A stretch of DNA of 64,000 nucleotides from BD1-7 clade bacterium (GTDB taxonomy: Bacteria > Pseudomonadota > Gammaproteobacteria > Pseudomonadales > DT-91), in contig CACSIO010000012.1 in the NCBI GenBank assembly GCA_902705865.1, forward strand, positions 496,001 to 560,000, in the 5' to 3' direction. Made by a program: the position numbers and the translations under genes. Each line of letters opens with the position of its first letter. Position 1 is the first letter of the stretch. This document shows, one piece after another, positions 9,708 to 64,000 of the stretch. Under the pieces are notes generated by a model. It was not told the DNA's origin, ran no database searches, and saw only the letters and a list, made by a program, of their open reading frames with translations.

Positions 9708-9798
9708 TGGCTAGATCTTGGTGAGTGCAGGAATAGGGCTGTGTAAGCCCATTCAAGTTTCTCGCTCTGCATAGTTACAATCAAATGCAGCTACACCA

Positions 9799-40270: not shown

Positions 40271-40310
40271 GCGTATATCAAGATACGCTAAAGCGATATT
40301 TGTATATCGC
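40271..40310 (-). repeat. Two tandem small hairpins at the lipoprotein gene's 3' end
   Basis: GCGTAT (40271-40276) pairs with ATACGC (40283-40288), and GCGATAT (40293-40299) pairs with ATATCGC (40304-40310). The second lies inside the last codons of the lipoprotein gene. There is no T-run on the minus strand, so termination is not assured. Confidence 0.35.
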
Positions 40311-41265: not shown

Positions 41266-41456
41266 TTCAACTTCAACAAATGGCTATAACGAATTGGCTC
41301 AGCGATTCTAGGGTAAGGTGCTGAAATGGGTCAAATGTTGGTTTGATTTTTGTTGCTGGTATCTCATTCCAATGGCCGGTAGAATATGCGCCCCTCACAG
41401 TTTGCTAACGCAAATTGACAAAGGCATTTCAGTGACCTCAGTTGGAGATAATTTCA

Positions 41457-42674: not shown

Positions 42675-42728
42675 TTGTTTGCTAGCTTGAGCTTTGCATA
42701 TTTCTGCGGAGCACAACAGAATACTACC

Positions 42729-42760
42729 AACAAGCGCCTATAGGGCGCTTGTTGTGTTTT
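42729..42760. terminator. Bidirectional terminator between argG and the facing membrane protein gene
   Basis: AACAAGCGCC (42729-42738) and GGCGCTTGTT (42744-42753) form a perfect 10-bp stem with a TATAG loop; GTGTTTT follows on the plus strand. The left arm ends at the stop codon of the minus-strand gene. Confidence 0.8.
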
Positions 42761-43547: not shown

Positions 43548-43706
43548 GGTTCCATCCTCTTATGTTTTTGTTTACTTATAGCGCAAAGCGCCTTGCCCTG
43601 CAGATTCCAGTGGCGGGAAGATGATTAATTTACCAAAAAACGCTAGAATCGCGTGCCATTTAATTCCACCGGGTCCGCCGCCCTTCGCCAACGAAGAGAT
43701 TTATTT

Positions 43707-45287: not shown

Positions 45288-45293
45288 CGCAAG

Positions 45294-46163: not shown

Positions 46164-46189
46164 TCGGTAACGATCTGGCTTATTCAAAT

Positions 46190-46217
46190 AAAAACAGCCG
46201 CAATAGCGGCTGTTTTT
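46190..46217. terminator. Bidirectional terminator between DUF72 and the acetolactate-synthase-like gene
   Basis: A 12-bp perfect stem (46190-46201 and 46206-46217) with an AATA loop and T-tails on both strands separates two convergent genes. Confidence 0.9.
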
Positions 46218-46243
46218 GTCTCAGAGGTGGTGGTTGATTATCG

Positions 46244-47896: not shown

Positions 47897-47935
47897 TGAC
47901 TTTTTCCTTTGCGAGCGTGACGCAGTCATTCCAAG

Positions 47936-49396: not shown

Positions 49397-49753
49397 TGGG
49401 CTTTGTCCCTTTCAATGAGAGTGCGTCGCTATGTGTCCATTTTCGTGTCTTTCTGTCTGAACCCGTTATTGTCTGCGAGTTCGCGCTCAGAGCAAAAAAT
49501 AATCAACGCGTTATAAATGTGAGATAAGACGACTAACGACAAAGCGTAGCTGACGATATAGGGTTGCGCGAATGTGCACGTCTATTGTTATCTTTGGTGA
49601 AGATTCGTCGATCTGAAGCTGCTGGATTAAGGTAGATATTGGAGGGTGGGATCAATATGAAGCTGCAGCGGAGAGCTGCTTTAGGTGCGATAAGGCTGAG
49701 AGTTGCGCTACGCCATTGATATCCGGGTAGCGCCTCGGGACGTGATTGCAGAA
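49397..49753. other. Intergenic region between the ALDH and glycosyltransferase genes
   Basis: This 357-base gap carries the ALDH promoter. A tiny frame at 49657-49719 (20 residues, Arg/Ala-rich, preceded by GGAGGGTGGG) has a ribosome-binding-site-like lead but no other support. GCGCTAC (49705-49711) and GTAGCGC (49727-49733) form an imperfectly tailed hairpin after it. Confidence 0.35.
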
Positions 49754-50833
49754 TTAGTAGATTAATCCTGGCTGCACCTGGTTACCGAAAGATGCGTCAT
49801 AATCTTGTTTGACACTTGTCTCGTGCCAAAGGGCCTTTACGAGAGTGTCGATGGAGTCCCATTGTCTATTGACGACCCATTTGGCTATGGCGTCGGCGAC
49901 GTCAGGATAGTTGGCAGGTTGATGGCCTGGTAATTCCAGCCATTTCTCGAGAACTTGCTGATCAAGTTTTTCAATCACTGTGCCGCGCCCAAGAGCCTGT
50001 ATCGCTAAGGCATTACAGAGTTGCTCATATTGACCGAGCAACGGTTTTATCAGTACTTTTTTTCCAAGGTGGATACATTCGCTAGCAAGCTCAAAACCTG
50101 CGTTGCTGATCACGCCGTCTGCATCAAGAAGATCATCGTGGAATTCCTGGTGGCTTAATGGGTTGATCTTGATGTGGCCGAGATCGCGCTTTTTATCCAC
50201 TTTGGCGTAAATATGGAACTCACAGTGATCGAAAGGTGTGACAAACTTGATCACCTCGTCGATGGCTTCAAAGCCCATGTACACGACGATTTTCCCTTTG
50301 ATTGGCGGTTTATGCGTCTGTGGCTCGATTAACGGTGGTAGAACCTGCTGGTCGAAATGATGCCAATGCAAGCCAACTTTGTGTTTTGTCGGAGCGAAAA
50401 AACGCATCAGTATCTTTGACGATTGGTGGCCTGTGACTTTAGGAACATCATAATCAAACGCGCTCTGGTGACTTATGCCGAGGCTGGGAACGCCCTTGAG
50501 TTTTGCTGCCCATGCAGTAACGGGCTCAAAATCCGAGATAACTGCGTCGTAGGGTTTGAGATCCAAGCGAGCGACATCACTTAGCAATCGCGCAATATTT
50601 GATGTGACAATGGTTTTGGCTGGTTGTAAGCGTCCATTTTTGGTGGCGAAGGTCATACCGTTAAAGCAGCGAAAATCGTCGCCGAATAATTCCATGTTAA
50701 AGAACTGATCGCGCTCGCGTCCTGAGAACACGAAATCGATATCAACACCTGCGGAACGGAGCGCGGGCGTCAATGCGCGTGCGCGTGCTAAATGACCGTT
50801 GCCTGTGCCCTGAACTCCATAAAGGATTTTCAT
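49754..50833 (-). CDS. MJ1255-type glycosyltransferase family protein
   Basis: This 359-residue GT-B-fold protein starts M-K-I-L-Y-G-V-Q-G-T-G-N-G-H-L-A-R-A, with the Gly-rich loop typical of the GT28/MJ1255 family. It has A-G-V-I-S-N-A-G-F-E-L-A-S-E-like donor-site residues (S-N-A-G-F-E-L-A-S-E, about 245-254) and K-P-L-L-G-Q-Y-E-Q-L-C-N-A in the C-terminal domain. Substrates are unknown. It is 87 bases upstream of neither operon partner in strict sense, but the PAP2 gene lies on the same strand behind it, suggesting lipid-linked glycan work. Confidence 0.82.
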   Translation of the reverse strand: MKILYGVQGTGNGHLARARALTPALRSAGVDIDFVFSGRERDQFFNMELFGDDFRCFNGMTFATKNGRLQPAKTIVTSNIARLLSDVARLDLKPYDAVISDFEPVTAWAAKLKGVPSLGISHQSAFDYDVPKVTGHQSSKILMRFFAPTKHKVGLHWHHFDQQVLPPLIEPQTHKPPIKGKIVVYMGFEAIDEVIKFVTPFDHCEFHIYAKVDKKRDLGHIKINPLSHQEFHDDLLDADGVISNAGFELASECIHLGKKVLIKPLLGQYEQLCNALAIQALGRGTVIEKLDQQVLEKWLELPGHQPANYPDVADAIAKWVVNRQWDSIDTLVKALWHETSVKQDYDASFGNQVQPGLIY

Positions 50834-50920
50834 TCAAATACCTGAAGTGGTTTATTGATTATTCTCTGTATCTGCCAAGTTCTCTGGCAGATGTAACAAG
50901 CAAAAATATGGATATGATGG

Positions 50921-51436
50921 TTATGCAAGGGCAAGAATAGATACAAACGTACACATCACTCCGAGGGCTGCGCCAGCGATGATGTCGCCAGGGTAGTGGA
51001 CACCCAAAAGCACGCGAGAAAGTCCGATAAGGGTTGCCCATAAATAGGCCAAGCCGGCCCAGTATGGAAACATATACGCGATCAATGTTGCGACAACAAA
51101 AGCAGCAGCAGCGTGACCGGAGGGTAATGAGAATTTGTCGCTCGGCTGCACCAGCTTTTTGGCATTGTGAAGTTGCACAAACGGGCGGTTTCTTTTAAAT
51201 AGATGTTTTAAGCCGATGAAACTGGGTATTTCAAACAGAAAGGCTAGCAATCCCGTGAAGAGGAAAATAAGCCCAAGTTCTTTATTGATTAGATATATGA
51301 AGCCAGCAATTAATGGGTAAAAGTAGCCGTCACCGGTGAAGGAGACTCCCCTCGTGATTTTCATTAACCATTTCTGTTGTTGAAATTGGTTAAACCAAAG
51401 GTAGGTCGTGCGATCAATTTCAGAGATACTTGCCAT
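50921..51436 (-). CDS. PAP2-type membrane phosphatase
   Basis: This 171-residue multi-pass protein has the three phosphatase motifs: K-H-L-F-K-R-N-R-P (motif 1), P-S-G-H (motif 2) and S-R-V-L-L-G-V-H-Y-P-G-D (motif 3). Several TM helices surround them. PAP2 enzymes hydrolyse lipid phosphates such as phosphatidate or undecaprenyl pyrophosphate. The M-M start leaves a choice between 51439 and 51436. Confidence 0.88.
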   Translation of the reverse strand: MASISEIDRTTYLWFNQFQQQKWLMKITRGVSFTGDGYFYPLIAGFIYLINKELGLIFLFTGLLAFLFEIPSFIGLKHLFKRNRPFVQLHNAKKLVQPSDKFSLPSGHAAAAFVVATLIAYMFPYWAGLAYLWATLIGLSRVLLGVHYPGDIIAGAALGVMCTFVSILALA

Positions 51437-51439
51437 CAT

Positions 51440-51908
51440 GTTGGATCTCTCTGTGACTTTCTTTCTATGTCGGTCGCTAACGCACTTCAGACATCCTGTA
51501 CGCTGAGTAAGACCAGCGAATTACGGAATGTCTCCGCAGGTATGCCACAAATATATAAATTGCCTGCTTTGCCAGTTAGACGCCGTTATTTCTGGCGATC
51601 TTCTCTGGTTAACATGCTACTTAAAGGTAATGTTGCTGCGTTGGCGATTTAGTCCTTATTATTGCGTCGTTACCCGCTTTACAGCGTTCTACTGTGTGTT
51701 ATAGCAGAATTCTTCTGGGTTAAACGATCGCTCCAGTTAGCAGAAAGTCTAGAAATGCAATATGTCTCCGAAGTGAACAAAATATGAACAATATGTTACG
51801 TCTCTAGGTGCAGTTGCCATTTTCAGGAAAATGTATGTGTCTATTATCCAGCGATTGATGCTGAAAAATCCGTATAATCACCGAAAATTCGACTTTTTGG
51901 AGTGTTCT
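51440..51908. other. Intergenic region between the PAP2 gene and the enoyl-CoA hydratase
   Basis: This 469-base gap contains open frames but no ribosome binding site with a recognisable product. An AT-rich stretch and TGGAG at 51898-51902 mark the hydratase start. I see no other feature. Confidence 0.35.
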
Positions 51909-52715
51909 GTGCCTTTTATCACTATTGAAAATCCCACCCCTGAAATTGCTATTGTGAGCTTGAATCGACCTGAGCGTATGAACGCAATGGCGTTTGATGT
52001 CATGGTTCCCTTTAAAGAAGCACTCGAAACGTTGAGCTTCGACAGCTCGGTGAGAGTCGTCATTGTTACTGGTGTTGGCGAGGCGTTCTGCGCAGGCGCA
52101 GATTTGGAAGACCCGGGGTATCTGCCCATGTTTGATGGTTTGACGATGCCCGGAATTAGCCGTCGAGCGATGCGTGTGCTCGAAGATGTGATAACAACAA
52201 TACAAAACATGCATCAGCCGGTTATCGCTGCGGTAAACGGACCTGCGATCGGCGGTGGATTTTGTCTTGCCATGGCGTGTGATATTCGACTAGCGGCTCA
52301 AAAGGCTTTTTTCCGCCCTGCTGGGATTAATAATGGGCTAACTGCCGCAGAACTAGGTTTGAGTTATATTCTGCCAAGAGCAATCGGTTCAACACGAGCC
52401 TTTGAAATTATGCTCACTGGCAGAGATGTTGATTCGAAAGAGGCCTCTGATATTGGGTTGGTCTCTAACGTTGTTGCAGATGAATCCTTGATGGACGAAT
52501 GTTTACTAATTGCCAAGCGCATCACTGGGTTTAGTCAAGTGGGGGTAGAGCTGACAAAACAAATGATATGGTCCGGGCTTGAGTCAAATAGTAAGCACTC
52601 CCATATGAATCACGAAGGGCAAGCACAGCTGTTTGTTCGAATGACGACGTCAAACTTTGAAGAAGCCATTAGAGCTAGAAAACAAAAACGTGCGCCAGAA
52701 TTCAAAGACGAATAG
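51909..52715 (+). CDS. Enoyl-CoA hydratase/isomerase family protein
   Basis: This 268-residue crotonase-fold protein starts with GTG at 51909, chosen because TGGAG at 51898-51902 is well spaced; a frame to 51831 exists but lacks a site. Oxyanion-hole segments are A-F-C-A-G-A-D-L and N-G-P-A-I-G-G-G-F-C-L-A. It lacks a clear catalytic Glu pair (G-L-T-A-A-E-L-G-L holds one candidate Glu), so hydratase versus isomerase cannot be decided. It is convergent with the RiPP cluster's first gene. Confidence 0.88.
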   Translation: MPFITIENPTPEIAIVSLNRPERMNAMAFDVMVPFKEALETLSFDSSVRVVIVTGVGEAFCAGADLEDPGYLPMFDGLTMPGISRRAMRVLEDVITTIQNMHQPVIAAVNGPAIGGGFCLAMACDIRLAAQKAFFRPAGINNGLTAAELGLSYILPRAIGSTRAFEIMLTGRDVDSKEASDIGLVSNVVADESLMDECLLIAKRITGFSQVGVELTKQMIWSGLESNSKHSHMNHEGQAQLFVRMTTSNFEEAIRARKQKRAPEFKDE

Positions 52716-52772: not shown

Positions 52773-53207
52773 TTAGATGGTGTATCGGTCGATAACTTGA
52801 TAGTGCGTAAAACCGTTGCCCCCGGTAATGAACTGATCACCTAGCTGCAGCCAAGCGTGTGCCTTGTATTCACCTTCCGTTTTTGACACCCCAATGTAAA
52901 CGGTACCTGCCGAGTTTCGCTGTTTCAGCATGCTCTGTGCCGCCATCGCCTGTACCAGGCATTTGCACTCCCAGGGTAAGTGTTTTGCTGTGCGTTGCAC
53001 AGCCTCGCTGATGCGCATGGCATCAGCAGAGCAATGTTGTTCTGGCAGATCACCTTTAAGCCATTGTGTACCAAGCAGAGCGGTTTGTTTGGGGTAGGCG
53101 GCAAATCGAACGAGAAAGCGTGCGTAACCGAGCCAGATGATGGCTTCCAACAATAAAAAACGATTGTGGTCTTTGAGGAGTCGTAAGGTTAGGCGTAGCT
53201 TTTTCAT
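52773..53207 (-). CDS. Lasso-peptide B2-type transglutaminase-like leader peptidase
   Basis: This 144-residue protein matches the B2 (transglut_core3) family that cleaves the leader of lasso precursors. It has a Cys-His centre: Cys83 in C-K-C-L-V-Q-A-M-A-A-Q and His117 in K-A-H-A-W-L-Q-L-G; an Asp at 124 or 140 could complete the triad. The N-terminal 40 residues are basic and hydrophobic, as in B2 proteins. It is the last gene of the minus-strand arm B2 - B1 - sulfotransferase - kinase. It requires a recognition partner, which is the PqqD-like gene 40 bases upstream. Confidence 0.88.
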   Translation of the reverse strand: MKKLRLTLRLLKDHNRFLLLEAIIWLGYARFLVRFAAYPKQTALLGTQWLKGDLPEQHCSADAMRISEAVQRTAKHLPWECKCLVQAMAAQSMLKQRNSAGTVYIGVSKTEGEYKAHAWLQLGDQFITGGNGFTHYQVIDRYTI

Positions 53208-53247: not shown

Positions 53248-53523
53248 TCAGGTGATATTGATAAACTGTTTGTCGGCTAGCTGTGTTAAGAAGCGCAATA
53301 CTTCTTGGTTGCATTGAGCTTCAGTTACGTCGTAGCTTTCCTGCATTTTGCTGCTGATGGCCAGGCCGGTTTGCGGTGTTTCAAGTAGCTGCCAGATCAG
53401 CGCGCTGACTTGATCCAGCTTGAAATACTTGCCCGTTTCTGTGCACATCAGCACAAACTCACCATCCAATTCACAGTCAAGTTGTGAAGGATTACGTTCT
53501 ACGGTTGTGTTGAGATCTAACAC
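53248..53523 (-). CDS. PqqD-like RiPP recognition protein (B1)
   Basis: This 91-residue PqqD-family protein has a winged-helix RiPP recognition element that binds the precursor leader. Its features are D-L-N-T-T-V-E-R-N-P, L-D-G-E-F-V-L-M-C-T-E-T-G-K-Y-F-K-L-D-Q-V-S-A-L-I-W-Q-L-L (beta-hairpin then helix), and V-L-R-F-L-T-Q-L-A-D-K near the end. It sits between the B2 peptidase and the sulfotransferase. Confidence 0.9.
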   Translation of the reverse strand: MLDLNTTVERNPSQLDCELDGEFVLMCTETGKYFKLDQVSALIWQLLETPQTGLAISSKMQESYDVTEAQCNQEVLRFLTQLADKQFINIT

Positions 53524-53541: not shown

Positions 53542-54408
53542 TTAATATACGATGTTATTGTTTTCATCGAGATAGTCGAATTTTCTCATGGTGTCTTGGT
53601 GCTTTTCAATGAAGGGCAACACCATCGATTCAGGCAGTTCATCGCGCCAACTGCCAACCTTACCTTGGCGAAAGAACTTCTTGGATTTATGTGGGCGTTC
53701 TTTAAAATCACCCTGATCTTCCTGTTGTTGAAGCCTGGCGAAGTTGCATTTTTCAAGCGCGGTGAGAATGTCTTGATCAGTCGCTTCGATACCTGCAAAT
53801 TGCAAAGCTTTTCCGAACGTCTCCAGCGGTTTGCTTTGCATATCTTCGTAGCGGATCACACAGCACGGTACTTCTTTTGCGTCAGCCCAGCTTTCGACGT
53901 GTTCGCCCCATGTCAGTAGTTTTTGTCTGAGTTGGCTTTGTTGTTTCTTTTTCGGAACAAACGGATCTTCCTGAATGCCGTCAGTCATCAGCGAAAGCAC
54001 TTTCGAAACGTCGTTTTGCCCTTTGTGATGCGCGTATGATACGCAGACATCAAAGGGGTTTCTTACGATATAGATTGCGCCAAGTGAAGCCGATGCGGAT
54101 ACCAGCGGTTCACCTTGATCGTTAAAGGTATAGGCGTCGTGAATTTTGTGGAACTGCACGGATTCATAGTGCTCAGCGGCGAATTCGTAAACACGCGGCC
54201 GCAAACGGTCTATCTCAGTATCTGTAAGGTCGGCAGAATCGTAGCCAATCACACGATCAAACCAGGCTCTAGAGCTGGCGATTGTTTTTGCTTCGTCCAA
54301 CTCGTTAATATCGAGTGATTTATCCGGATTGAGGAGTGCATTCAGAAACATCCTGAACCAGGTATTGCCTGACTTTGGATAGCTCGCCAGCCAGATGATG
54401 TTTTTCAT
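53542..54408 (-). CDS. Sulfotransferase domain protein (PAPS-dependent)
   Basis: The start ATG 54408 forms an ATGA overlap with the upstream kinase stop, giving 288 residues. The 5'-phosphosulfate-binding loop is S-Y-P-K-S-G-N-T-W (residues 7-15), and the 3'-phosphate-binding segment is V-R-N-P-F-D-V-C-V-S-Y. R-K-G-x-x-G-type end motif appears as R-Q-G-K-V-G-S-W. Its place between RiPP genes suggests it modifies the peptide, for example by sulfating a Ser, Thr or Tyr. The precursor has Ser and Thr but no Tyr. This is inference. Confidence 0.88.
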   Translation of the reverse strand: MKNIIWLASYPKSGNTWFRMFLNALLNPDKSLDINELDEAKTIASSRAWFDRVIGYDSADLTDTEIDRLRPRVYEFAAEHYESVQFHKIHDAYTFNDQGEPLVSASASLGAIYIVRNPFDVCVSYAHHKGQNDVSKVLSLMTDGIQEDPFVPKKKQQSQLRQKLLTWGEHVESWADAKEVPCCVIRYEDMQSKPLETFGKALQFAGIEATDQDILTALEKCNFARLQQQEDQGDFKERPHKSKKFFRQGKVGSWRDELPESMVLPFIEKHQDTMRKFDYLDENNNIVY

Positions 54409-55325
54409 CGGGCAAGTTCCGCTTCGACGAGCTTGATCATTTTCTGTTGGAAGAAGTTTGAGCTTTTCGGGCGATTGAGATGATAAACTGACACTTTTTG
54501 CGACAGCGTGGCGCACTGCTTGAAGTGCTTGGTTTCGCGCTTAAGTCCTTGCAGATATTGATTACGGTAAGTGTGTGTTTTCAAGCATTCGATGATTTTG
54601 ACGCCGTTTATCTTTCTGAAGTCCAGCTCTGTGCCGTTATGGGGTTCCAGTTGAAAAATATGTGTGAGCGGTCTTTCGGAGTCACAAAATGCATCGTGAA
54701 TGGGGAGTTTACGCTTCGAAACGTTTGGGCGGATTAACGCGAGAGATTCTGGATCCATGTCGAGGCTTTCAAGCGAGTCATGCCAGAGCTTAGCCTGAGG
54801 GTAGCCAGGGTAGACTGTAGGCAGCTGTGTTTTGTCATCGGGCATCTTGATTACACACAAATCATCACCCAGTATTCGATAGCCTTTTTGTCTAAAAGCA
54901 GCCGCCAGTGTTGATTTCCCGCGGCCGGAGTGGCCGACAAATGCCGCACATTGCCCATCAATCTCGACCACGCTGCCATGTAAAACAAGCAAGTCGTTTT
55001 GTTGTAACAGGGCGCCTAAAACCGAGCCGAGCAAAAACAGTCGGATAGAATCCTGATCTGTGTCTGTTTCTGGGGCGATAATAATTTCGTTGCCTTCTTT
55101 CACCAGATATCGAGCAACACCATCGACACTCAGCAAAAATTGCTGATCCTGAATCTGGAAGCGAGGGCTACAAAATTCTGGATCTTCAAGCTGTGTAGGT
55201 ACTTCACCAAATCGGATTGTTACTTGTGGTTGAGCGCAATCGTCTATCGGAGAGAGTTCCGGGCATTCAAGCTCTGATGTTATGTCGAAACCAAAACAAC
55301 GGTAGGTAAAAATGCGATCGCTCAT
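54405..55325 (-). CDS. HPr-kinase-like protein of the RiPP cluster
   Basis: This 306-residue protein starts from ATG 55325. It has the Walker A loop G-H-S-G-R-G-K-S-T (about 134-142) in V-G-H-S-G-R-G-K-S-T-L-A, then L-G-D-D-L-C-V, where the Asp pair resembles HprK's catalytic motif. Enzymes of this type (ThcoK, PadeK) phosphorylate the C-terminal Ser of lasso peptides in paeninodin-type clusters. The candidate precursor here ends in Ser44. It overlaps the sulfotransferase gene by 4 bases. Confidence 0.88.
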   Translation of the reverse strand: MSDRIFTYRCFGFDITSELECPELSPIDDCAQPQVTIRFGEVPTQLEDPEFCSPRFQIQDQQFLLSVDGVARYLVKEGNEIIIAPETDTDQDSIRLFLLGSVLGALLQQNDLLVLHGSVVEIDGQCAAFVGHSGRGKSTLAAAFRQKGYRILGDDLCVIKMPDDKTQLPTVYPGYPQAKLWHDSLESLDMDPESLALIRPNVSKRKLPIHDAFCDSERPLTHIFQLEPHNGTELDFRKINGVKIIECLKTHTYRNQYLQGLKRETKHFKQCATLSQKVSVYHLNRPKSSNFFQQKMIKLVEAELAR

Positions 55326-55586
55326 CAGCAAACACTCTATCTTGTCGCGAGTTATGAGCGGGCATTATATAAGAAACGGACTTGTAATGTCTTGTAGGAT
55401 TAGAGCGAGCCGATCGTCTGCATATCTGAGGGTTGTTCGTTGCCGAGTCGACCCGTTGAAATCATTAGTTTTATGGGGGCGCTGGCGATATCATTACGCT
55501 TCTGTGAATACCAACCAGCCTAAGTATGCGATGATACGAAGTAGCGGTTTAGAATTTCCATGAGTACCGAAAAACAGGACGCCACC
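55326..55586. promoter_or_regulatory. Divergent region between the RiPP minus arm and cobS
   Basis: This stretch of about 260 bases should hold both promoters. AGGA at 55576-55579 fits cobS ATG 55587. I see no clear -35/-10 pair or small peptide gene here. Confidence 0.4.
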
Positions 55587-56579
55587 ATGCAATCAAACCC
55601 TTTGGACGCTATCTGCGTTGATTCCAAGCCTGACGTTGTGATTGATGTTCGGGAGGTATTTGGTATAGATACCGAGATGCAGATTTCGGGGTTTAGTGAG
55701 TCGAGTGCTAATGTGCCAGATAAGATTGACGGTTATGCATTTGATCCGGATACCACGCTGGCCATTCTGGCAGGCTTCTCGCACGATCGGCGAGTGATGT
55801 TACAAGGACTGCATGGCACAGGGAAATCCTCACATATTGAGCAAGTGGCGAGTCGGCTTAATTGGCCTTGCCTACGTGTTAATCTCGATAGCAATATCAG
55901 TCGTCTTGATCTGATCGGGCGTGACGCCATTGTTGTGGAAGATGGAAAACAGCGCACCGTGTTTCAGGAGGGCATTCTGCCCTGGGCCATGCAGCGCCCC
56001 GTTGCACTGATATTTGATGAATATGATGCAGGGCGCCCGGATGTCATGTTTTTGCTGCAGCGCCTGTTGGAAAACGAAGGTAAATTAACACTGTTAGAGC
56101 AGAATCGTGTTGTCAGCTCACATCCGTCGTTCCGACTCTTTGCGACTGCAAATACAGTCGGGTTAGGCGATGCAACAGGTCTTTATCATGGTACGCAGCA
56201 GCTTAATCAAGCGCAAATGGACCGCTGGCACATCGTCAGCAAACTGGAGTTTCTGCCCTTTGAGCAGGAGCTGGCACTGCTGCAAGCACAGGTCAAAGGT
56301 TTAACCGAAGAGCAGCAGCCGATGCTGGGTAATATGGTTGCAATGGCGCAGCTAACGCGTGAAGGTTTTAAGCACGGCGATATTTCAACGCTGATGTCGC
56401 TGCGTACACTATTAACCTGGGCAGATAACTTCAAGATCTTCGGTGATTTGGCACTTGCGTTTAAAGTCAGCTTCCTGAACCGCTGTGATGAAGAGGAGCG
56501 GATGATTCTGAGCGAATACTATCAGCGCTGCTTTGATACGGAAATTATGGATTACAGTGGGGCGTTATCGTTTGCTTGA
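55587..56579 (+). CDS. cobS: CobS-type AAA+ ATPase (cobaltochelatase subunit family)
   Basis: This 330-residue protein aligns closely with aerobic cobaltochelatase CobS: D-V-R-E-V-F-G-I-D-T-E-M, then F-D-P-D-T-T-L-A-I-L-A-G-F, Walker A G-L-H-G-T-G-K-S-S-H-I-E-Q-V-A, and R-V-N-L-D-S-N-I-S-R-L-D-L-I-G. Walker B is I-F-D-E-Y-D-A-G-R-P-D-V-M-F, and A-N-T-V-G-L-G-D and Y-H-G-T-Q-Q-L-N-Q-A-Q-M-D-R-W follow. ATG 55587 is preferred, since AGGA precedes it; 55560 is the alternative. CobS normally works with CobT and CobN to insert cobalt into hydrogenobyrinic acid diamide. No CobN or other cobalamin gene is present in the window, and it is flanked on both sides by RiPP genes. Confidence 0.93.
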   Translation: MQSNPLDAICVDSKPDVVIDVREVFGIDTEMQISGFSESSANVPDKIDGYAFDPDTTLAILAGFSHDRRVMLQGLHGTGKSSHIEQVASRLNWPCLRVNLDSNISRLDLIGRDAIVVEDGKQRTVFQEGILPWAMQRPVALIFDEYDAGRPDVMFLLQRLLENEGKLTLLEQNRVVSSHPSFRLFATANTVGLGDATGLYHGTQQLNQAQMDRWHIVSKLEFLPFEQELALLQAQVKGLTEEQQPMLGNMVAMAQLTREGFKHGDISTLMSLRTLLTWADNFKIFGDLALAFKVSFLNRCDEEERMILSEYYQRCFDTEIMDYSGALSFA

Positions 56580-58245
56580 ACGTGAAAGAGCAAGAGAGTT
56601 AGATAAGCGCGTTGAGCAGTTCACCAAAGGTGAGTTTGACAAAGCGTTGCAGGCAACCCAGCGCACGCTTTCGGGTGACGAGGCGAGTGGCTCTATACGC
56701 ATTATTGATTCGTTGTTTGGTGAGGCAATTGGGTTAACGAGCCTCGCGCTTGTTCGCGCACTTTCTGATTTATCCGGCCTTTGGGCGCGTCATCACGATG
56801 AGCAAATTCAAGCACAACTCACACAACGCTTCGGCAATGCCGCCTTTCTGACCTGGTTAGATGTTATCCGCATTGAAGCTCTGGCTTCACGATGGTTGCC
56901 AGGGCTTCAGTCAAATACTGTGGCACTCTTCGACTGTTTCATCGAGTATTATGGGGGATCTGTTCACGATAAAAGTGACGGATTTGCCGTCGAGCAATTG
57001 TCCCAGCTTATTGCTATTCGATGTTTAGTGTCGACGTTACACACCAATGCCCAGATCTTACCTGCGAATTATGCGGAAGTTATCCCTGTTGTGCGGGGGC
57101 CAAGTATCGAGCCCGATGTATTGCATCAATATTTGAACGATCAAGAGGCCTTTGCTGGATGTGTGCTGAGCAGCTTTGGGTATCAGGAAGTTGAAGGGCG
57201 GCTTCTTAAGCCTGAGCCTCAATGTGATTCAGAACCGGTAGGTGAAGACTTCTCAGACGATCCAGAGGATGCACAGCCAAAACTCGATACTCAGAGTCTG
57301 GAGGCTGCATCAGAGTCAATGGAGATCCATTCTGACAATTATGTTGATGGTTATAGCGTCTTTGATGCGAGCTACGACCGCGAAATTGATGCCAATACCT
57401 ACATGCGCCAGTGCGGTATGATGGCTGAAGTGCGCGATGACGAAACGCCTAACGCACTCGTTCATCGTTTGGCAAAGTGCCTGCAGCGACGTTTGCAAGC
57501 CATGCAGGCTCGCGATTGGGATCATGATCTTGAAGACGGCCGGTTGGATGCTCGTCGGTTGGCGCAAGTCGTCTCAGCGCCTTTATCTGCCAAGCCCTAC
57601 AAAAAGGAACGTGATTCTACCTTTCGTGAAACGGTTGTGACGCTCTTGGTCGATAATTCCGGATCAATGAGAGGTGAGTCTATTCACGTTGCCTGGCAAT
57701 GCAGTTGTGTGATCTCGCAAGTTCTCGAACGTTGTGGTGTAAAAGTCGAGGTGCTTGGTTATACCACCAATAAAAAAAATCAGCCGTTAGCACAATGGGA
57801 AGCCTCGGGTAAGCCTGAGCAACCCGGACGACTCGCAGCGCTTAATCATCTTGTTTATAAGTCTGCCGACACGCCTTATCGCCGTGCGCGTGCCGGGTTG
57901 TCATTAATGTTGAATGATCAGCTGTTAAATGAAAATATCGATGGTGAGGCACTGCTGTGGGCCTCGCATCGTCTTATTCAGCGGCGCGAAGCGCGAAAGA
58001 TTTTGCTCGTTATTTCCGATGGTAAGCCAATGGATAAAGCGACTCGTACCCATAACGCACGAAGCTTTCTCGACGACCACCTTATTCAAGTGGTGCGAAG
58101 TATTGAGGAGAGAGGGCAGATTGAGTTGGCGGCGATTGGTATCGGGCATGATGTGGCACGCTATTATGCAAACGCGGTGACGATTTATAAGGCAAACGAG
58201 CTTGGTGAGCGCTTGATCAACCATTTGGACAGTTTGTTCGCTTGA
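56533..58245 (+). CDS. cobT: CobT-type VWA protein (partner of CobS)
   Basis: The 570-residue protein has a C-terminal VWA domain (about 365-570) with intact MIDAS D-N-S-G-S-M-R-G, V-E-V-L-G-Y-T-T, Y-K-S-A-D-T-P-Y-R-R-A-R, N-I-D-G-E-A-L-L-W-A, I-S-D-G-K-P and I-G-I-G-H-D-V-x-R-Y-Y, all as in CobT. The preceding D-L-E-D-G-R-L-D-A-R-R-L-A also matches. The N-terminal half is diverged from reference CobT but keeps R-I-E-A-L. An acidic stretch (about 240-290) precedes the C-terminal part. The start is unclear: TTG 56533 overlaps cobS by 47 bases, GTG 56557 or TTG 56572 being alternatives. It is coupled to cobS. Confidence 0.9.
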   Translation: MIRKLWITVGRYRLLERERARELDKRVEQFTKGEFDKALQATQRTLSGDEASGSIRIIDSLFGEAIGLTSLALVRALSDLSGLWARHHDEQIQAQLTQRFGNAAFLTWLDVIRIEALASRWLPGLQSNTVALFDCFIEYYGGSVHDKSDGFAVEQLSQLIAIRCLVSTLHTNAQILPANYAEVIPVVRGPSIEPDVLHQYLNDQEAFAGCVLSSFGYQEVEGRLLKPEPQCDSEPVGEDFSDDPEDAQPKLDTQSLEAASESMEIHSDNYVDGYSVFDASYDREIDANTYMRQCGMMAEVRDDETPNALVHRLAKCLQRRLQAMQARDWDHDLEDGRLDARRLAQVVSAPLSAKPYKKERDSTFRETVVTLLVDNSGSMRGESIHVAWQCSCVISQVLERCGVKVEVLGYTTNKKNQPLAQWEASGKPEQPGRLAALNHLVYKSADTPYRRARAGLSLMLNDQLLNENIDGEALLWASHRLIQRREARKILLVISDGKPMDKATRTHNARSFLDDHLIQVVRSIEERGQIELAAIGIGHDVARYYANAVTIYKANELGERLINHLDSLFA

Positions 58246-58354
58246 TGTCGTCTGATGCTGTTTAAATGGTGCTCCGGCGAGAGTGAAGTGTCCGTGGTAA
58301 CCTTTGGTCGAATGCGATAATGAAAATTAAATTTATAAAGACTGTATTGAATCT

Positions 58355-60304
58355 ATGAGTGGTTTTGGTGGAATTGTTCAAACCGGTGAACAACGAGTTG
58401 ATTTAAAAAACGTTGAACGCATGATGGGAGCGTTGCGGCCCTATGGGCCCGATAACCAGAAAACGCTGATCCGCCCTCGCGTTAGCATGCTGCATACGTT
58501 GATGCGGATAACGCCTGAAGATTTTTTTGAACGCCAGCCATTAAGTTCTGCTGCTGGCCATATGTTGTGCGCTGATGTGCGTCTTGATAACCGCAGAGAA
58601 TTGGCAAGTCAGCTCGCTGTTCATCCCGCCCAGCTAAAAATGCTGCCAGATAGCCAACTGATTCTTAAAGCCTACGAAAAGTGGGGAGAGGAATGTCTGA
58701 ATCATCTACTTGGCGATTTTTCGTTTGCACTCTGGGATGCCCGCACAGAAAAGCTGTTTGCTGCTGTTGATCATTTTGGTAATCGCCCGATTTTTTATAA
58801 CCAGCAACGGGACTGTTTCAGCTTCGCAAATGATATCAAGGCCATCCTGGCTTTACCTTGGGTAACTAATGAGCTTAATGAGCAGAAGCTGGCGGAATTT
58901 ACCGTACTCTTACACGCAGACGCCAGTGCGAGTGTTTATCGGGATGTAACTCGTGTTCCTGGAGGTCATTACTTAACGGTTACGAATCAAGGATTGGATG
59001 TTCGTCGATATTATGCTCTTGAAGATAATATCAAGGATGTTCGGTTCAACAATCCCGATGACTATAGTGAAGCATTAAGGAGTTTACTGGAGCAAGCCGT
59101 TACCTGTCGGTTGCGTAGTGCATACCCGATTGCCAGCGAGCTAAGTGGCGGGTTGGATTCCTCCAGTGTCGCTTGTTTAGCCGCGATTGAACTGGCTAAG
59201 AGTGGTAAAAGTCTTGCTACGTATACAGCTGTACCTGACGGCAAAAGCTCGGGAATTCAGAAGCCGGGGTGGGATCTCGATGAGCGCAGCGTGGTGGAGA
59301 GTTTGAGGCAATGGTATCCGAATATTGATCTCAATTTTATGGCCTTTGGGTCTGAGAATAGCAACATGTTCTCGTCTCTCGAATGGGGCTACGGCGCGAT
59401 CGGTTTTCCTGGACGCAATTTCGCAGGCGGTTGGGGTAGAGAGCTGGCGCTTAAGGCACGTGGAGATGGTGCCAGGGTTTTATTAAGCGGGAGTCAAGGG
59501 AATTTAACTATCAGCTGGGCGGGGGAGTGCTTCCTGAGTGAGTTGATTGCAGATCGGCGCTGGCTCCGCTGGGGGCGTTGGGCTTCTAGCGATCTTCTCG
59601 AGCGCCGGCGAAATATGAAGCAAATTTTGAGTGCTTCGTTCGTACCTTTTATTCCGGATGTATTGTGGGCGAAGTACCAGCAGTATCGCGCTTGTGGGCA
59701 GGCACCGTGGTCTGCTTTCTCGTTGATTAATCCACAGATGGCGAAGGATAAGCGATTGGCAGATCGTCATAAAGAGCTAGGTTGGGGCCTCTATCGTCGC
59801 CGTTATGCTCGATCGAGAGACAGTCGTGTGATGGCGATTCTGAATGGTGCTTTTTGTGATTCGAGAGATCGGTTGAGTGCTTCAAGGGCGTTCAACGGTA
59901 TTGAGCGGCGTGACCCTACATTGGATAAGCGGGTTGTTGAGTTCTGTCTTGGGGTGCCTGAACAGGAGTACTGTCGAGATGGTGTTCCTCGATCATTGGT
60001 TCGTCGCGCTATGTATAGTGTTTTGCCTCCCGAAATTGCGTGTCGCCAACGAAGAGGAGCGCAGCCTCATGAATATTCAAGTGGTTTATATGAAACGGCT
60101 AGTGATCTAAGAATCAATATGGAAAAACTCGCATCATCTGATCAGGTCAGCAAATATTTGGATATACCGAGAATGAGACAGCTATTGGAGCAGGCGATTG
60201 ACGGTGATCTGCAGGGAGGAGAGGCGAGGAGGGCGAAGCTTGCGTTGGTGCGTGCTTATTCTGTTGGTGGATTTATTCGTTATGTCGAAGGCGACAATGA
60301 TTGA
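58355..60304 (+). CDS. Asparagine-synthetase-like lasso cyclase (C protein)
   Basis: This 649-residue protein has an N-terminal glutamine-amidotransferase-like domain (about 1-200) and a C-terminal synthetase domain with the PP-loop S-G-G-L-D-S-S-S from residue 264. It starts M-S-G-F-G-G, so the Cys2 nucleophile of real asparagine synthetases is a Ser and no ammonia can be made that way, as in lasso cyclases. It should adenylate a precursor Asp/Glu side chain to form an isopeptide ring. Its own upstream gap of 109 bases holds a weak GATAAT (58315-58320). The precursor gene lies 43 bases downstream on the opposite strand. No Shine-Dalgarno sequence is clear. Confidence 0.88.
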   Translation: MSGFGGIVQTGEQRVDLKNVERMMGALRPYGPDNQKTLIRPRVSMLHTLMRITPEDFFERQPLSSAAGHMLCADVRLDNRRELASQLAVHPAQLKMLPDSQLILKAYEKWGEECLNHLLGDFSFALWDARTEKLFAAVDHFGNRPIFYNQQRDCFSFANDIKAILALPWVTNELNEQKLAEFTVLLHADASASVYRDVTRVPGGHYLTVTNQGLDVRRYYALEDNIKDVRFNNPDDYSEALRSLLEQAVTCRLRSAYPIASELSGGLDSSSVACLAAIELAKSGKSLATYTAVPDGKSSGIQKPGWDLDERSVVESLRQWYPNIDLNFMAFGSENSNMFSSLEWGYGAIGFPGRNFAGGWGRELALKARGDGARVLLSGSQGNLTISWAGECFLSELIADRRWLRWGRWASSDLLERRRNMKQILSASFVPFIPDVLWAKYQQYRACGQAPWSAFSLINPQMAKDKRLADRHKELGWGLYRRRYARSRDSRVMAILNGAFCDSRDRLSASRAFNGIERRDPTLDKRVVEFCLGVPEQEYCRDGVPRSLVRRAMYSVLPPEIACRQRRGAQPHEYSSGLYETASDLRINMEKLASSDQVSKYLDIPRMRQLLEQAIDGDLQGGEARRAKLALVRAYSVGGFIRYVEGDND

Positions 60305-60314
60305 ACAGTGTGTT

Positions 60315-60343
60315 GTTTTAGAGGGGTACGCCCCCTCTAAAAC
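60315..60343. terminator. Perfect inverted repeat between the cyclase and precursor genes
   Basis: GTTTTAGAGGGG (60315-60326) and CCCCTCTAAAAC (60332-60343) form a 12-bp stem with a TACGC loop. It lies between convergent genes, beginning 11 bases after the cyclase stop. There is no T-run outside the stem, although the stem base is A/T-rich, so it may terminate both transcripts or protect 3' ends. Confidence 0.6.
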
Positions 60344-60347
60344 TTGA

Positions 60348-60482
60348 TTAAGATTCTGAAATACCTGGCGTTGTACCGCCGTCCATGCCAGCTCCTATGT
60401 CGTTTCTTGTTTCGAGTTCAGTGAGTTCTTCTAGTTTAGGTGTTGACCAAGTTTCTTTTTCGGTATGCAGTGTTTTTTCCAT
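60348..60482 (-). CDS. Candidate lasso-type RiPP precursor peptide (44 aa)
   Basis: This short gene (ATG at 60482, TAA at 60348-60350) is preceded by GGGG seven bases before the ATG. The 44-residue peptide has a Lys/Glu-rich leader with W-S-T-P-K-L at residues 12-17, matching the Y/W-x-x-P-x-L leader motif read by B1 proteins of lasso clusters. The core side contains NDIGAGMDGG (27-36) and then TTPGISES (37-44), ending in Ser. No Gly/Ala/Ser/Cys followed by Asp/Glu at position 7-9 gives a threadable ring. Only R26, N27 or D28 as residue 1 would place Asp34 at 9, 8 or 7; N27 also leaves Thr25 at -2, the position lasso peptidases prefer. C-terminal Ser could be the kinase site. Confidence 0.78.
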   Translation of the reverse strand: MEKTLHTEKETWSTPKLEELTELETRNDIGAGMDGGTTPGISES

Positions 60483-60583
60483 CTTCTAGCCCCAATTTAG
60501 CTGTTAGTTTTTTTAAGTGATAATGAGTGATGCCTACATGGATTTTCATTTCGGTTAGTTTAAGGCATTCATCGGTTCTTGGA

Positions 60584-60617
60584 AATGCCCTTTTTATCTG
60601 CAGATATAAAGGGCATT
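60584..60617 (-). terminator. 34-bp near-perfect palindrome between the repeat-protein gene and the precursor gene
   Basis: Arms 60584-60600 and 60601-60617 pair over 17 bp with one mismatch and no spacer, centred on CTGCAG. It lies 21 bases after the stop of the upstream repeat-protein gene on the minus strand and about 100 bases before the precursor ATG. It may end the upstream transcript or attenuate read-through into the precursor gene. Confidence 0.6.
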
Positions 60618-60638
60618 AATGGTACGGTTTGTAGCAGC

Positions 60639-61937
60639 TTACAGGCTGTTTGGGTTAACTGCACCTTTGAGATCAAGGCTGCCATCGCTATTCAGGCGCA
60701 TAACTTGGGTGCCGTTGGCGAAAAATTTCAATCCGCCAGGTGTATTTAAGATAAACCACTCGATACCGTCAGCTGATGAATCCTTGATTGCAATACCCGT
60801 TGGACCATTATTTTCGATGGCTACCAATAAGCGGGTTGTTTCAGTTGCTGTGTTCTCGACGCGAAGCGCTGTTACATTATCACCAGAAAGAATTAATCCG
60901 CTTGATTTGTCTGTGATTTTCAAATTTGTGGCGCCATCAGTGCCTGCTACTTCCAGGTTCGCGCTTGGAGCGCTTGTGCCTATTCCCACTTTTCCGTCCG
61001 CTGCTACTGTTAAGCGGGGTGTGCCTGAAGAGTTATTGCCCGTGCTGATTGCACCGCCGTCTGCAACAGAGAACCGTGTTTGAGTACCATCTGTGCTTTT
61101 AACTTCAACCATGTTTACCGGTGCGCTTGTGTTAATACCTACTTTACCAGCAGGGGTGACGGTAAGGTGGCTTTTTCCGCCTGTAGTTTGAACGTCAAGC
61201 AGGCCGGCTGGCATCTTGCCGTTATCGATGTTGATGCCGAAGTACCCAACAGGGGAAATCAACACTGCATGGTTGTTGGCATCTGCTGGGTGGGCAATGT
61301 CAAGAATGCCGTCAGGTGTGCTTGTTTCAAAGCCGATATCACCATCTGCGGCAATAAATAGAGAGTCATTGGGAGCGCTAGGCTTGATTTTGAAGGGGAT
61401 TTTGCTGCCGTTGGTTGCATCACGAATAAAGAAGTTGGTTTCGTTGCCCGCAACATCCCATACTTGGGATGTAAAGCCTGAGCTACCGTCTTGTTCTAGC
61501 CGCAGAGACGGTGAATTACCATACTTTAAATGAAGGTTAACCACGGGGGCGCTGGTATTGAAGCCGACAAAGCCATTGTCCCTGACGTAAATGCTGTGGC
61601 TGGGTGCCGAAGATACTATGGTAAACGGTGTTCTTCCTGAATCGATTTCGTCAATCGAAAACTTATTGATACCGCCGTTAGCTGAGTCGTTAAATGTCAG
61701 TTGCCAATCAATGGTTGGGAAGCTAGAAGATGAGCTTGAATCAACCGCTCTAATGCGTACATTGTTTTCTTTCAGACGAATAGTATCGAAGCCAAAATTT
61801 TCGCCGTTAGAGCAATCTGTTCCAACGCAAAGACTTCCACTGACAATTTGATCATCTTGGATATATTGATCTGCGTAGGTTTGTGCTGATAGCAGGGCAA
61901 TGGTTGATATAGCAGTGCTGAGGATGGTTTTATTCAT
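60639..61937 (-). CDS. Exported protein with tail-fibre-like G-x-V-G-I-x-T-S-A-P repeats
   Basis: This 432-residue protein has a signal peptide (about 1-22, ending T-Y-A). The body contains repeats of the type G-F-V-G-F-N-T-S-A-P, G-D-I-G-F-E-T-S-T-P, G-K-V-G-I-N-T-S-A-P and G-K-V-G-I-G-T-S-A-P, each followed by a beta-strand-rich segment. These resemble shaft repeats of phage tail fibres and secreted beta-structured surface proteins. The first part has two Cys (C-V-G-T-D-C). It ends without a chaperone (S74-type) domain. No phage genes are nearby. It is on the same strand as the 44-aa precursor and 6 bases from the next exported protein gene. Confidence 0.72.
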   Translation of the reverse strand: MNKTILSTAISTIALLSAQTYADQYIQDDQIVSGSLCVGTDCSNGENFGFDTIRLKENNVRIRAVDSSSSSSFPTIDWQLTFNDSANGGINKFSIDEIDSGRTPFTIVSSAPSHSIYVRDNGFVGFNTSAPVVNLHLKYGNSPSLRLEQDGSSGFTSQVWDVAGNETNFFIRDATNGSKIPFKIKPSAPNDSLFIAADGDIGFETSTPDGILDIAHPADANNHAVLISPVGYFGINIDNGKMPAGLLDVQTTGGKSHLTVTPAGKVGINTSAPVNMVEVKSTDGTQTRFSVADGGAISTGNNSSGTPRLTVAADGKVGIGTSAPSANLEVAGTDGATNLKITDKSSGLILSGDNVTALRVENTATETTRLLVAIENNGPTGIAIKDSSADGIEWFILNTPGGLKFFANGTQVMRLNSDGSLDLKGAVNPNSL

Positions 61938-61943
61938 TATCGA

Positions 61944-62342
61944 TTAATCCCTTGATTTTTTGTCTTTAGCGGTAACAACATTGCCGTTGGCGATGATAAA
62001 TTCACCGCTGTAGACCACTGCAATACGGTCGCCTGGGGTTTGTGCTTCGTTGCGGCCGTTGTTGAATTGTGATTTTGTCTCTTCTGTTGAACTGCCTATG
62101 TTTGCGTTAACTTCAAAGCTGTATTGTCCGTCGGGAAACCCCCTGTCGCTGCTGATAACGAGAGATTCAGAACGTAAGTTAAAGTTGTGAGGGCCGCTTA
62201 TTCTAACAAATTCGACACTGCTCTCATCGGTATCGATCGTGACGGTATCTGAATCGCCTGAAACAATCGTTTCGCCAAGGCTAATACTGGCAAACAAAAG
62301 TGATGAGGCGAAGAGCAATGATTGAGTGAGGGAGGGCATCAT
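61944..62342 (-). CDS. Small exported protein of unknown function
   Basis: This 132-residue protein has a signal peptide (hydrophobic S-L-L-F-A-S-S-L-L-F-A-S-I-S-L-G, about residues 8-23). The mature part is beta-rich and acidic, with G-D-S-D-T-V-T-I-D-T-D near its start and A-V-V-Y-S-G-E-F-I-I-A-N-G-N-V-V-T-A near its end. It precedes the repeat protein by 6 bases, so the two are an operon. I do not recognise it. Confidence 0.65.
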   Translation of the reverse strand: MMPSLTQSLLFASSLLFASISLGETIVSGDSDTVTIDTDESSVEFVRISGPHNFNLRSESLVISSDRGFPDGQYSFEVNANIGSSTEETKSQFNNGRNEAQTPGDRIAVVYSGEFIIANGNVVTAKDKKSRD

Positions 62343-62767
62343 TGTTTGTCCTTGGTTGTTAGAGCGACATCGTTAGTGCTCTATCTTTGGCTGTACGCTT
62401 CATAGGTCGCCGCGCCGAAGTGCACTCTAATTGATTTTGGTATTCGATTAGGGTGGGCTGACAGCGTGCCCGTTATTATTGCGTTATATTTGCTGCTGCC
62501 ATTCTAGTTAGTCGATGCTTATAAAACAAGTTTGAATTAAATGGTTAGATTCAACGTACTCGATCTTGTGCTTACAGTGATTAACTATCTGAGTATGATG
62601 AGCATCGTATTACATCAATTTTATAGCAGGACCAGCCAACGTTGTTATAATGGTTTCCTATAATTCGTTGCTTTGGTATAGCGTTGTTGTTTATACGGTT
62701 GTGCCGATAGTTTTGCTATGCTGCGTCAGTTGTTGTGTTTCTAGTTGTTTCTTCGGGTATTGATATC
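62343..62767. promoter_or_regulatory. Divergent intergenic region with a TATAAT
   Basis: This 425-base gap separates the two exported-protein operons. TATAAT at 62646-62651, preceded by TTGT, could be an extended -10 element for the plus-strand gene; no good -35 is present. Several palindromic A/T stretches occur but nothing diagnostic. Confidence 0.35.
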
Positions 62768-64000
62768 GTGTTTGCATTATTCCAGCGTTTGGTTTGTGTT
62801 CTGTTTTTTTGTATGGCGTTGCCTGCATTATGTCTTGAAGTAAACGCTACGGCGAATGATGCATTTTCTCCAGTTTTGCAAAGTATTGGCGAGCTTGAAG
62901 GGACGTCTGACCCTAAGTGTTATGCCACTGCATCGCGTCTTGAGGATTTTATTTATGGTACTCCGCTAACCGATGGAGCACGTTTTGCCAAAATCGATTA
63001 TCAAAAAGCACTGATTGAGGCGCTGTGGCGTGAGGCGTCAATTGCAGCACAGCAAGCCGGCGAGAGTACGATTAGTCGGAAGCGAATACGGGCATATTTT
63101 CTCGCCGTTAGTAATTTGCAAGCGATGAAAAATGGCGATTGGGTGGTGAAGCCTGAGGGTAGTGCGGACAGTGTTCTGATTGTGGCTGATATTTATCGCC
63201 AGTACAGCAGTATTGCTTATAGTCTGAGAGCCATTTTAGCGGTTCAGCAAGATAGCCTGTTGGGTGATGTTCTGTTATTGCCTCTATCTGACGAGGCGTT
63301 AATCGATATGCAGCTGTTTCTCGACTTGTACACCTTGGCAGTGTTGCACGTGGCTGACAAAGCCGCACGCGATAACGATTTATATGAAATAGATCAGCCA
63401 TTATTTGCAGCCGCTTGGAACAGATTGAACAACAAAACAGGAGCTCGATCTTCAGCTGTTGCCCGCATGGCGGGTAAGGCAACTGACGCTGGTTCTTCAT
63501 TCGCGCTAACGCACAAAATCATTGCCGAGAAAATCAGTGCGTATCAAGCGTATAACGAGATCAGTAATAAGGTTTTTATTCGAAATCTGCAGGTCTATTT
63601 CGCGCGTATGCCATGGCCCTCAGATACCGAGCAATCTGATCTCTTTAAGAAAGTATACAGCGAGGTTATGGTTGGTTTTGCGTTAGATTTGTATGCGGGT
63701 GCTGAGAAGGTGGCTGCTCAGCGGCAACATACGTTGATTCGTGTTGAGGATGTAAAAACCTATGCAGAGGCTTTTATTCCGCACAGTATTAATGAATATG
63801 AAGATGCGACGTTCTTCCCTCGTTTACCCGTTTCAAAACAAATTATGCTTGAATCCTACGATATGGATGCCTTTAGAGATAGCGGCGGGCATTGGCGTTA
63901 TCTTCAATGGGCGATGCAGGATGTGAATTTTGGCGCTACTAAACCGTTGGATCCATTTTCGGCTGAGCTTATGGCCGAAAACATTGCGCAGTTTGGTGTG
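62768..64000 (+). CDS. Large exported protein of unknown function, 3' partial
   Basis: An open frame starts with GTG at 62768 and runs without a stop through the window end, giving 411 residues. It begins with a hydrophobic signal-like stretch (L-V-C-V-L-F-F-C-M-A-L-P-A-L) with cleavage near residue 25. The rest is helical, with many Ala, Asp and Tyr residues and few Cys after the first 60. Segments such as R-L-E-D-F-I-Y-G-T-P, F-I-R-N-L-Q-V-Y-F-A-R-M-P and W-R-Y-L-Q-W-A-M-Q-D-V are distinctive, but I recognise no family. A GTG start upstream at 62735 is possible. The absent stop explains why listings of closed ORFs miss it. Confidence 0.7.
   Translation, partial: MFALFQRLVCVLFFCMALPALCLEVNATANDAFSPVLQSIGELEGTSDPKCYATASRLEDFIYGTPLTDGARFAKIDYQKALIEALWREASIAAQQAGESTISRKRIRAYFLAVSNLQAMKNGDWVVKPEGSADSVLIVADIYRQYSSIAYSLRAILAVQQDSLLGDVLLLPLSDEALIDMQLFLDLYTLAVLHVADKAARDNDLYEIDQPLFAAAWNRLNNKTGARSSAVARMAGKATDAGSSFALTHKIIAEKISAYQAYNEISNKVFIRNLQVYFARMPWPSDTEQSDLFKKVYSEVMVGFALDLYAGAEKVAAQRQHTLIRVEDVKTYAEAFIPHSINEYEDATFFPRLPVSKQIMLESYDMDAFRDSGGHWRYLQWAMQDVNFGATKPLDPFSAELMAENIAQFGV

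Follow-up and report, generated by a model that had tools for sequence, protein, structure and literature searches.

In the window, by which we mean the whole 64,000-nucleotide stretch of DNA analysed, a small gene (gene A) occupies positions 60348 to 60482 on the minus strand. Rereading its start and stop codons in the sequence showed that the 44-codon open reading frame (ORF) proposed in an earlier note is present as described, running from ATG at 60482 to TAA at 60348 and encoding the 44-residue peptide MEKTLHTEKETWSTPKLEELTELETRNDIGAGMDGGTTPGISES. Gene A is a real ORF and not a random frame, as judged from its sequence, a copy in a congener (genome G003) and a strict precursor rule, the last two described below. 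Its ribosome binding site, previously called good, had been overstated: the start region reads GGGGCTAGAAG-ATG and has nothing resembling AGGAGG at the usual distance, and the precursor gene of G003 has the better site, ACAGGAGAACAGTCG-ATG. Directly after the gene A stop codon, between gene A and the convergent gene C, lies a 12-bp hairpin (60315 to 60343; −21 kcal/mol, z −7.1) that has no U-tract. A strong hairpin of different sequence (z −5.0) follows the precursor stop codon in G003 as well. A scan of window positions 60250-60700 revealed no terminator-like or promoter-like sites.

Comparison of the gene A peptide with the NCBIfam and Pfam models produced no match, and the paeninodin model NF033524 did not recognise the precursor as a member. 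When the organism's own 5.7-Mb assembly, in which the window is bases 496001-560000 of contig C12, was searched with the 44-residue peptide, the sole match was gene A itself, so there is no close copy elsewhere in it. That genes of this kind are overlooked by annotation, as had been suggested, is in keeping with the plasmid of Thalassobaculum sp. OXR-137 (NZ_CP139716.1), on which a precursor candidate ahead of the cyclase (motif at L129:9118) sits in a gap of the gene table between the listed genes at 7986-8912 and 9282-11174, the table being stated to be incomplete.

Homologues of the leader-binding protein B1, the leader peptidase B2 and the lasso cyclase are all present in the cluster, as the earlier note had claimed from the sequence. 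The cyclase homologue, C (58355 to 60304, plus strand), contains GATase_7 (PF13537) and Asn_synthase (PF00733) domains above their cut-offs and scores 398.5 bits with NF033535, for which the cut-off is 525. The PqqD-like B1 (53248 to 53523, minus strand) reaches 62.0 bits with PF05402, above the cut-off, and 69.7 bits with NF033536, for which the cut-off is 80. Its best matches among solved chains were 9x90_B (a lasso B1) and TbiB1; the seven below them, out of nine, were designed beta-trefoil proteins and are meaningless. The transglutaminase-like B2 (52773 to 53207, minus strand) scores above the cut-offs of both PF13471 and NF033537 (74.9 bits), and its Cys (CLVQA) and His (AHAW) are conserved in the alignment.

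Gene A is convergent with C and lies about 5 kb from the block of B1, B2 and the two tailoring genes, K and ST. Homologues of cobS and cobT (55560 to 58245, plus strand; TIGR01650 and TIGR01651, both below cut-off) lie between K and C; they occur at this place in G003 too and are probably outside the pathway. A Pfam scan of the window genes between 40288 and 62342 turned up no exporter or isopeptidase. Ten genes at 40288-52715 have a housekeeping or unrelated look (argininosuccinate synthase, RF3, aldehyde dehydrogenase, glycosyltransferase, PAP2, enoyl-CoA hydratase and others). Just upstream of gene A, on the same strand, two proteins (60639-61937 and 61944-62342, both minus strand) have signal-peptide-like starts; neither showed a Pfam family above cut-off, and the larger, 60639-61937, carries tail-fibre-like repeats (DGKVGIGTSAP). 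An FG-GAP/ASPIC-UnbV repeat protein also lies near the cluster, at L126:736-3924, its start corresponding to window position 62735.

The HprK-like lasso kinase K (54405 to 55325, minus strand) carries the kinase motif as H116, G131, G134, G136, K137, S138, D154 and D155, and in the alignment the spacing of these residues agrees with that of H148-G163-G166-G168-K169-S170-D186-D187 in BsfK (excerpts of PMC10368454). The end of K is overlapped by the start of the sulfotransferase gene ST (PF00685; 53542 to 54411, minus strand). The ST protein belongs to PF00685 and has both SYPKSGNTW and VRNP..V..S, which we take to be the 5'- and 3'-phosphate-binding (PAPS) motifs; both are kept, with few changes, across ten aligned enzymes (ST and nine relatives). 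Its best solved match was Teg14 (E 5e-10), and the nearest solved relatives also included Teg12 and many small-molecule sulfotransferases. The same genome contains two further ST clusters (L010 and L012), each with its own W-x-x-P precursor ending in Ser.

The leader motif W-S-T-P-K-L noted earlier was found again, as W12-S-T-P-K-L17. From motif spacing we predict a leader of residues 1-26 (60405 to 60482, minus strand), with W12-x-x-P15-x-L17 at −15 to −10 and Thr25 at −2, and a core of N27-S44, NDIGAGMDGGTTPGISES (60351 to 60404, minus strand), with an Asn1-Asp8 ring and a C-terminal Ser18. Gene A thus has the leader combination of Y/W-x-x-P-x-L and Thr(−2), a rule described in excerpts of PMC10368454, position −2 being dependent on a putative cut. 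Cleavage would fall after Arg26, and given this cut the Asp/Glu of lasso cores at position 7-9 is D8 (D34 of the precursor); the cut site is not fixed, because the congener core reads either Met1/D9 or Gln1/D8. Position 8 is usual for a ring acid, and the candidates from other loci repeatedly have an acid at 8, 9 or 10, a nearby acid being part of the selection rule. The usual core residue 1 of known lasso peptides is Gly, Ala, Ser or Cys, a common trait and not a strict criterion; the predicted cut gives Asn1. The peptide ends in Ser44, as expected for a substrate of a lasso kinase, and this C-terminal Ser18 of the core is the likely kinase target.

G003 has the same cluster, with the precursor MNEKNEQLKETWVSPQLEEMIELETTMQTAGTNTDGTSSTS at the same place. 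Between window and G003, 12 out of 17 residues of leader K9-T25 are kept (codons 9-25: 7 identical, 5 synonymous and 5 residue-changing), and the core of the G003 precursor differs almost wholly from that of the window. The earlier note had staked its proposal on conservation of the peptide near cyclase homologues. Such conservation was found: the G003 copy adjoins the orthologous cyclase, and the same anatomy occurs beside the B1, C and K genes of other organisms. At the limits used, B1 matched in only the own genome and G003 among six genomes of the family, the kinase in 7 out of 369 genomes of the class, and the cyclase in 8 out of 293 genomes of the order. A scan of viral contigs with the kinase gave 3 pattern matches and no relative.

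Window and G003 are about 95% identical up to roughly 58,350-58,600, close to the 5' end of the cyclase gene; there identity drops to about 70%, and it remains low over 13 kb or more (window 58350-64000, L126/L127). Two regions compared elsewhere in these genomes show 90-93% identity. The drop looks like a recombination boundary. Exchange of cyclase and precursor as a pair was weakened as an explanation by the course of the low identity, which extends past fib, p132 and the FG-GAP gene; the low-identity stretch is a long divergent segment and not a two-gene cassette. The pair of genomes constitutes a natural experiment on the matching of cyclase and core.

To count ORFs of the gene A type, we used a strict rule that requires W/Y-x-x-P-x-[LIVM], Thr 12-14 residues after the Trp/Tyr, Asp/Glu 21-25 residues after it, a C-terminal Ser and length limits. 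Exactly one ORF in the window, gene A, satisfied it. This match is not independent of the rule, because the rule was drawn up after gene A and its relatives were known; the controls are the counts elsewhere and in shuffled sequence. In the 1.82 Mb examined, 9,480 short ORFs lie no more than 3 kb from kinase or lasso cluster genes; the rule picked out 40 of these, 2 of the 40 overlapping called cluster genes (the L026 kinase call, which uses an early start codon, and the end of the L035 cyclase call). By contrast, it picked out 0 out of 7,548 short ORFs away from cluster genes in the same sequences and 1 out of 53,868 in 60 block-shuffled windows (mononucleotide shuffles inside 50-base blocks). 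On these two counts we rejected a chance reading frame. An alternative precursor inside the window was also rejected, since no other ORF there satisfies the rule, and the better precursor elsewhere in the cluster that would have told against the original proposal was thus not found.

For the survey, we scanned a collection with an alignment of eight kinases, which gave 80 loci, and mapped clusters with B1, B2, C, K and ST profiles built from the window proteins and relatives from the window's genus. A locus entered the survey set if it had K together with one or more of B1, B2 and C, and 79 loci did so; outside the set stood K-only loci, the short loci L001-L008, L015-L022 and L103-L113, and L126-L130. 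ST was present in 28 out of 79 loci, including records named Limisphaerales, Bacteroidales, Owenweeksia, Sphingomonas, Novosphingobium, Thiodictyon, Methylomonas and Acidovorax. Among these 28 loci, B1 was found in 27, B2 in 17 and C in 25. K and ST lay on the same strand, at most 120 bases apart, in 27 out of 28, and with the earliest start codons they overlapped in 19 out of 28. A protein of the NTP_transf_5 family (PF14907) was encoded in 7 out of 28 ST loci and 33 out of 51 loci without ST. Outside Firmicutes the counts were 7 out of 28 and 15 out of 28 (p 0.054), a contrast that is only suggestive and depends on sorting by record names, with L053 (Chryseobacterium) counted as Firmicutes for the resemblance of its cluster to theirs. 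The nucleotidyltransferase and ST are not cleanly exclusive, 7 loci having both.

Precursor candidates were picked by leader motif, Thr and acid, the last residue being ignored. This produced 45 candidates from 39 loci, 43 of which end in Ser, against a background of 10.3% (1,459 out of 14,190 short ORFs in the 79 loci); because the 45 come from 39, partly related, loci (for example L010/L013, L012/L014 and window/L009), nominal p values overstate their independence. The candidates without C-terminal Ser were that of L041 and one of those of L029. Thr lay exactly 13 residues past the Trp/Tyr in 37 out of 45 candidates, and in 10 out of 16 from ST loci. Core residue 1 in those 37 was Ala (12), Asn (6) or Gly (6), with eight other residues sharing 13, so Asn1, at 6 out of 37, is not odd among kinase-locus candidates. 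The ring acid of the 16 ST-locus candidates stands in Asp-Gly in six (window, L009, L064, L070, L120 and L121), in Glu-Gly in two (L058 and L115) and in neither context in eight. Twelve of the 28 ST loci had no candidate: L012, L014, L036, L061, L065 and L071 contain looser Ser-ending candidates, partly selected on the terminal Ser, and L027, L062, L063, L066, L114 and L118 contain nothing convincing as a precursor. When ten candidates from other loci were compared with NCBIfam, the paeninodin model recognised those of L040 and L044, and the other eight matched nothing.

Some precursors near K-ST pairs or cyclase-like genes depart from this anatomy. Nearly identical cores, GPSTF[GS]SGQAAHVS, occur at L036:11027-11227 and in L129 near 9118; they have no ring Asp/Glu and adjoin an asparagine-synthetase-like gene. 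In a K-ST cluster of the window's genus, the candidates at L012:11293-11454 and L014:11669-11836 have no acid at core 7-9, and the L012 cyclase (557 aa) shows the Asn_synthase domain only. Because the precursors of L012/L014, L036 and L129 lack an acid at 7-9, not every member need be a lasso peptide.

Congener conservation, the strict-rule controls and the enzyme set support the earlier proposal that the ORF is the substrate of this cluster, and gene A very probably is the substrate of the neighbouring lasso enzymes. We think it probable, with good confidence, that it encodes a lasso precursor whose product is modified at its C-terminus. In the pathway we infer, the order of steps included, B1 would grip the W-x-x-P-x-L of the leader, K would place a phosphate on the last Ser while the precursor is still linear, and ST would add sulfate from PAPS. 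B2 would then cut after Arg26, Thr25 being left at −2, and C would activate core Asp8 and join it to the Asn1 amino group, closing an 8-membered ring threaded by the tail. Sulfation is perhaps a step of this pathway and is the least certain of them. Lasso kinases are described as phosphorylating the precursor C-terminal Ser (excerpts of PMC9266682; for paeninodin-type clusters also of PMC8498205), and the paeninodin kinase as unable to modify the threaded peptide (same portion of PMC8498205). A counterexample to C-terminal phosphorylation is BsfK, which phosphorylates Ser3 (excerpts of PMC10368454).

Several points speak against the lasso reading: the atypical Asn1, to which we give less weight in view of the candidates from other kinase loci, the cut that the congener core does not fix, the scores of C and B1 below the NCBIfam cut-offs, the patchy distribution, the precursor's lack of a model match, the related precursors lacking a ring acid, the Ser3 target of BsfK and the failure of the Pfam scan to find an exporter or isopeptidase. 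Gene A could be the true substrate and still give a branched-cyclic (unthreaded) or a linear phosphorylated or sulfated peptide. Among related K-ST loci are some whose candidates lack a ring acid at 7-9, including one nearly identical in L036 and L129, and the L012 cyclase has a single domain. However, the window cyclase has both domains and 398.5 bits with NF033535, and D8 stands where recurrent ring acids stand (the acid being part of the selection); we regard a product other than a lasso peptide as unlikely. Much more remote is the idea that gene A is a chance frame and that another part of the genome encodes the true precursor, which we judge very improbable: the convergent arrangement with C, the distance of about 5 kb across cobST and the weak Shine-Dalgarno sequence are set against the strict-rule controls, the positional conservation in G003 with its constrained leader, and a genome search that returned gene A only.

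The role of ST leaves more room for a different reading, in which precursor and kinase act together and ST modifies something else, such as a glycan or lipid. PF00685 enzymes have many substrates, peptide sulfation by ST is a prediction only, and small-molecule sulfotransferases stand beside Teg14 and Teg12 among its nearest solved relatives; but ST keeps company with K on the same strand in 27 out of 28 loci, with overlap in 19, and with B1 in 27 and C in 25, and we consider an unrelated target doubtful, if less so than the readings above. Across the 15 Ser-ending candidates of ST loci, the C-terminal Ser is the sole hydroxyl acceptor common to all: the L049 and L121 cores have no other Ser/Thr and otherwise Tyr only, and Tyr is absent from the cores of the window, L009, L064 and L070. 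ST may thus tolerate varied acceptors, or its target may be the C-terminal Ser or the phosphate on it. The hexose that pseudomycoidin carries on phospho-Ser is, by analogy, a partial precedent for the latter. Because of this shared acceptor, the adjacency of K and ST and the pseudomycoidin precedent (excerpts of PMC9266682), the two enzymes might work in series on the C-terminal Ser, the sulfate either being set on the phosphate, to give a phosphate-sulfate mixed anhydride, or vying with it for the hydroxyl; we give this version little credence. The defined 44-residue substrate makes the role of the sulfotransferase directly testable.

Judged by its parts, the cluster belongs with the kinase-bearing lasso clusters but, by model, not to the paeninodin family. 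Like paeninodin-type clusters (PadeA/PadeK, ThcoK, SyanK), it combines split B1 and B2 with a cyclase, an HprK-like kinase and a precursor ending in a Ser that serves, or here probably serves, as the kinase target; the Firmicutes kinase loci surveyed also show its leader motif and Thr(−2). It differs from paeninodin-type clusters in lacking an NF033524 match, in its predicted Asn1 and 8-membered ring, in the extra PF00685 sulfotransferase, in the splitting of its genes around cobST and in having no transporter in the stretch scanned. With pseudomycoidin (PsmK and the nucleotidyltransferase PsmN) it shares a second tailoring enzyme after the kinase; there a hexose is placed on the phosphorylated Ser (excerpts of PMC9266682), whereas the second enzyme of the window is a sulfotransferase, and the PF14907 proteins surveyed are only candidate relatives of PsmN. 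The bsf cluster of Bradymonas sediminis likewise has a kinase, B1, B2 and C, a Y-x-x-P-x-L leader and a flanking FG-GAP gene, but BsfK targets Ser3, Ile stands at −2, and transporter and nucleotidyltransferase genes are present (excerpts of PMC10368454).

Sulfotransferase and HPr kinase genes were mentioned for some Gram-positive lasso clusters in 2014 and 2021 with no function assigned (excerpts of PMC4289311 and PMC8498205). The sulfotransferases of L029 and L037, upstream of Firmicutes cyclases, match PF13469 best, whereas the window ST matches PF00685 best; these are two checked examples and not necessarily the enzymes meant in those papers. No sulfated lasso peptide came up in searches of the open-licence literature, most of it covered as listed entries; no word beginning sulfot or sulf occurs in the text of PMC13352647 and PMC9266682, and excerpts of PMC12325987 and PMC8776678 had no bearing on the matter. 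Kinase-bearing lasso clusters have already been characterised, and the recurrent pairing of the kinase with a PF00685 enzyme is the newer part: a lasso-like class, spread by record names over several phyla, for which the literature searched contained no characterised product. For the window, gene A very probably supplies a complete lasso cluster with a substrate that went unrecognised by the precursor models of NCBIfam and Pfam used here.

Phage tail Collar-domain-like proteins lie near 12 out of 28 K-ST loci (L014, L061, L063, L064, L065, L069, L070, L071, L079, L114, L115 and L121) and 1 out of 51 kinase loci without ST (Fisher p 6e-6, the loci not being independent; PF07484 for the two representatives tested). 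No pairing of phage tail collar, sulfotransferase and asparagine synthase appeared in the titles and abstract openings of the 10 of 19 literature matches listed. Some of the loci with a Collar-like protein also carry a gene for a GNAT acetyltransferase or an Asp/Asn hydroxylase. The K-ST cluster of Erythrobacter colymbi (L071:16470-17173, minus strand) contains three tandem candidates with similar cores (A..GGDG...YGS).
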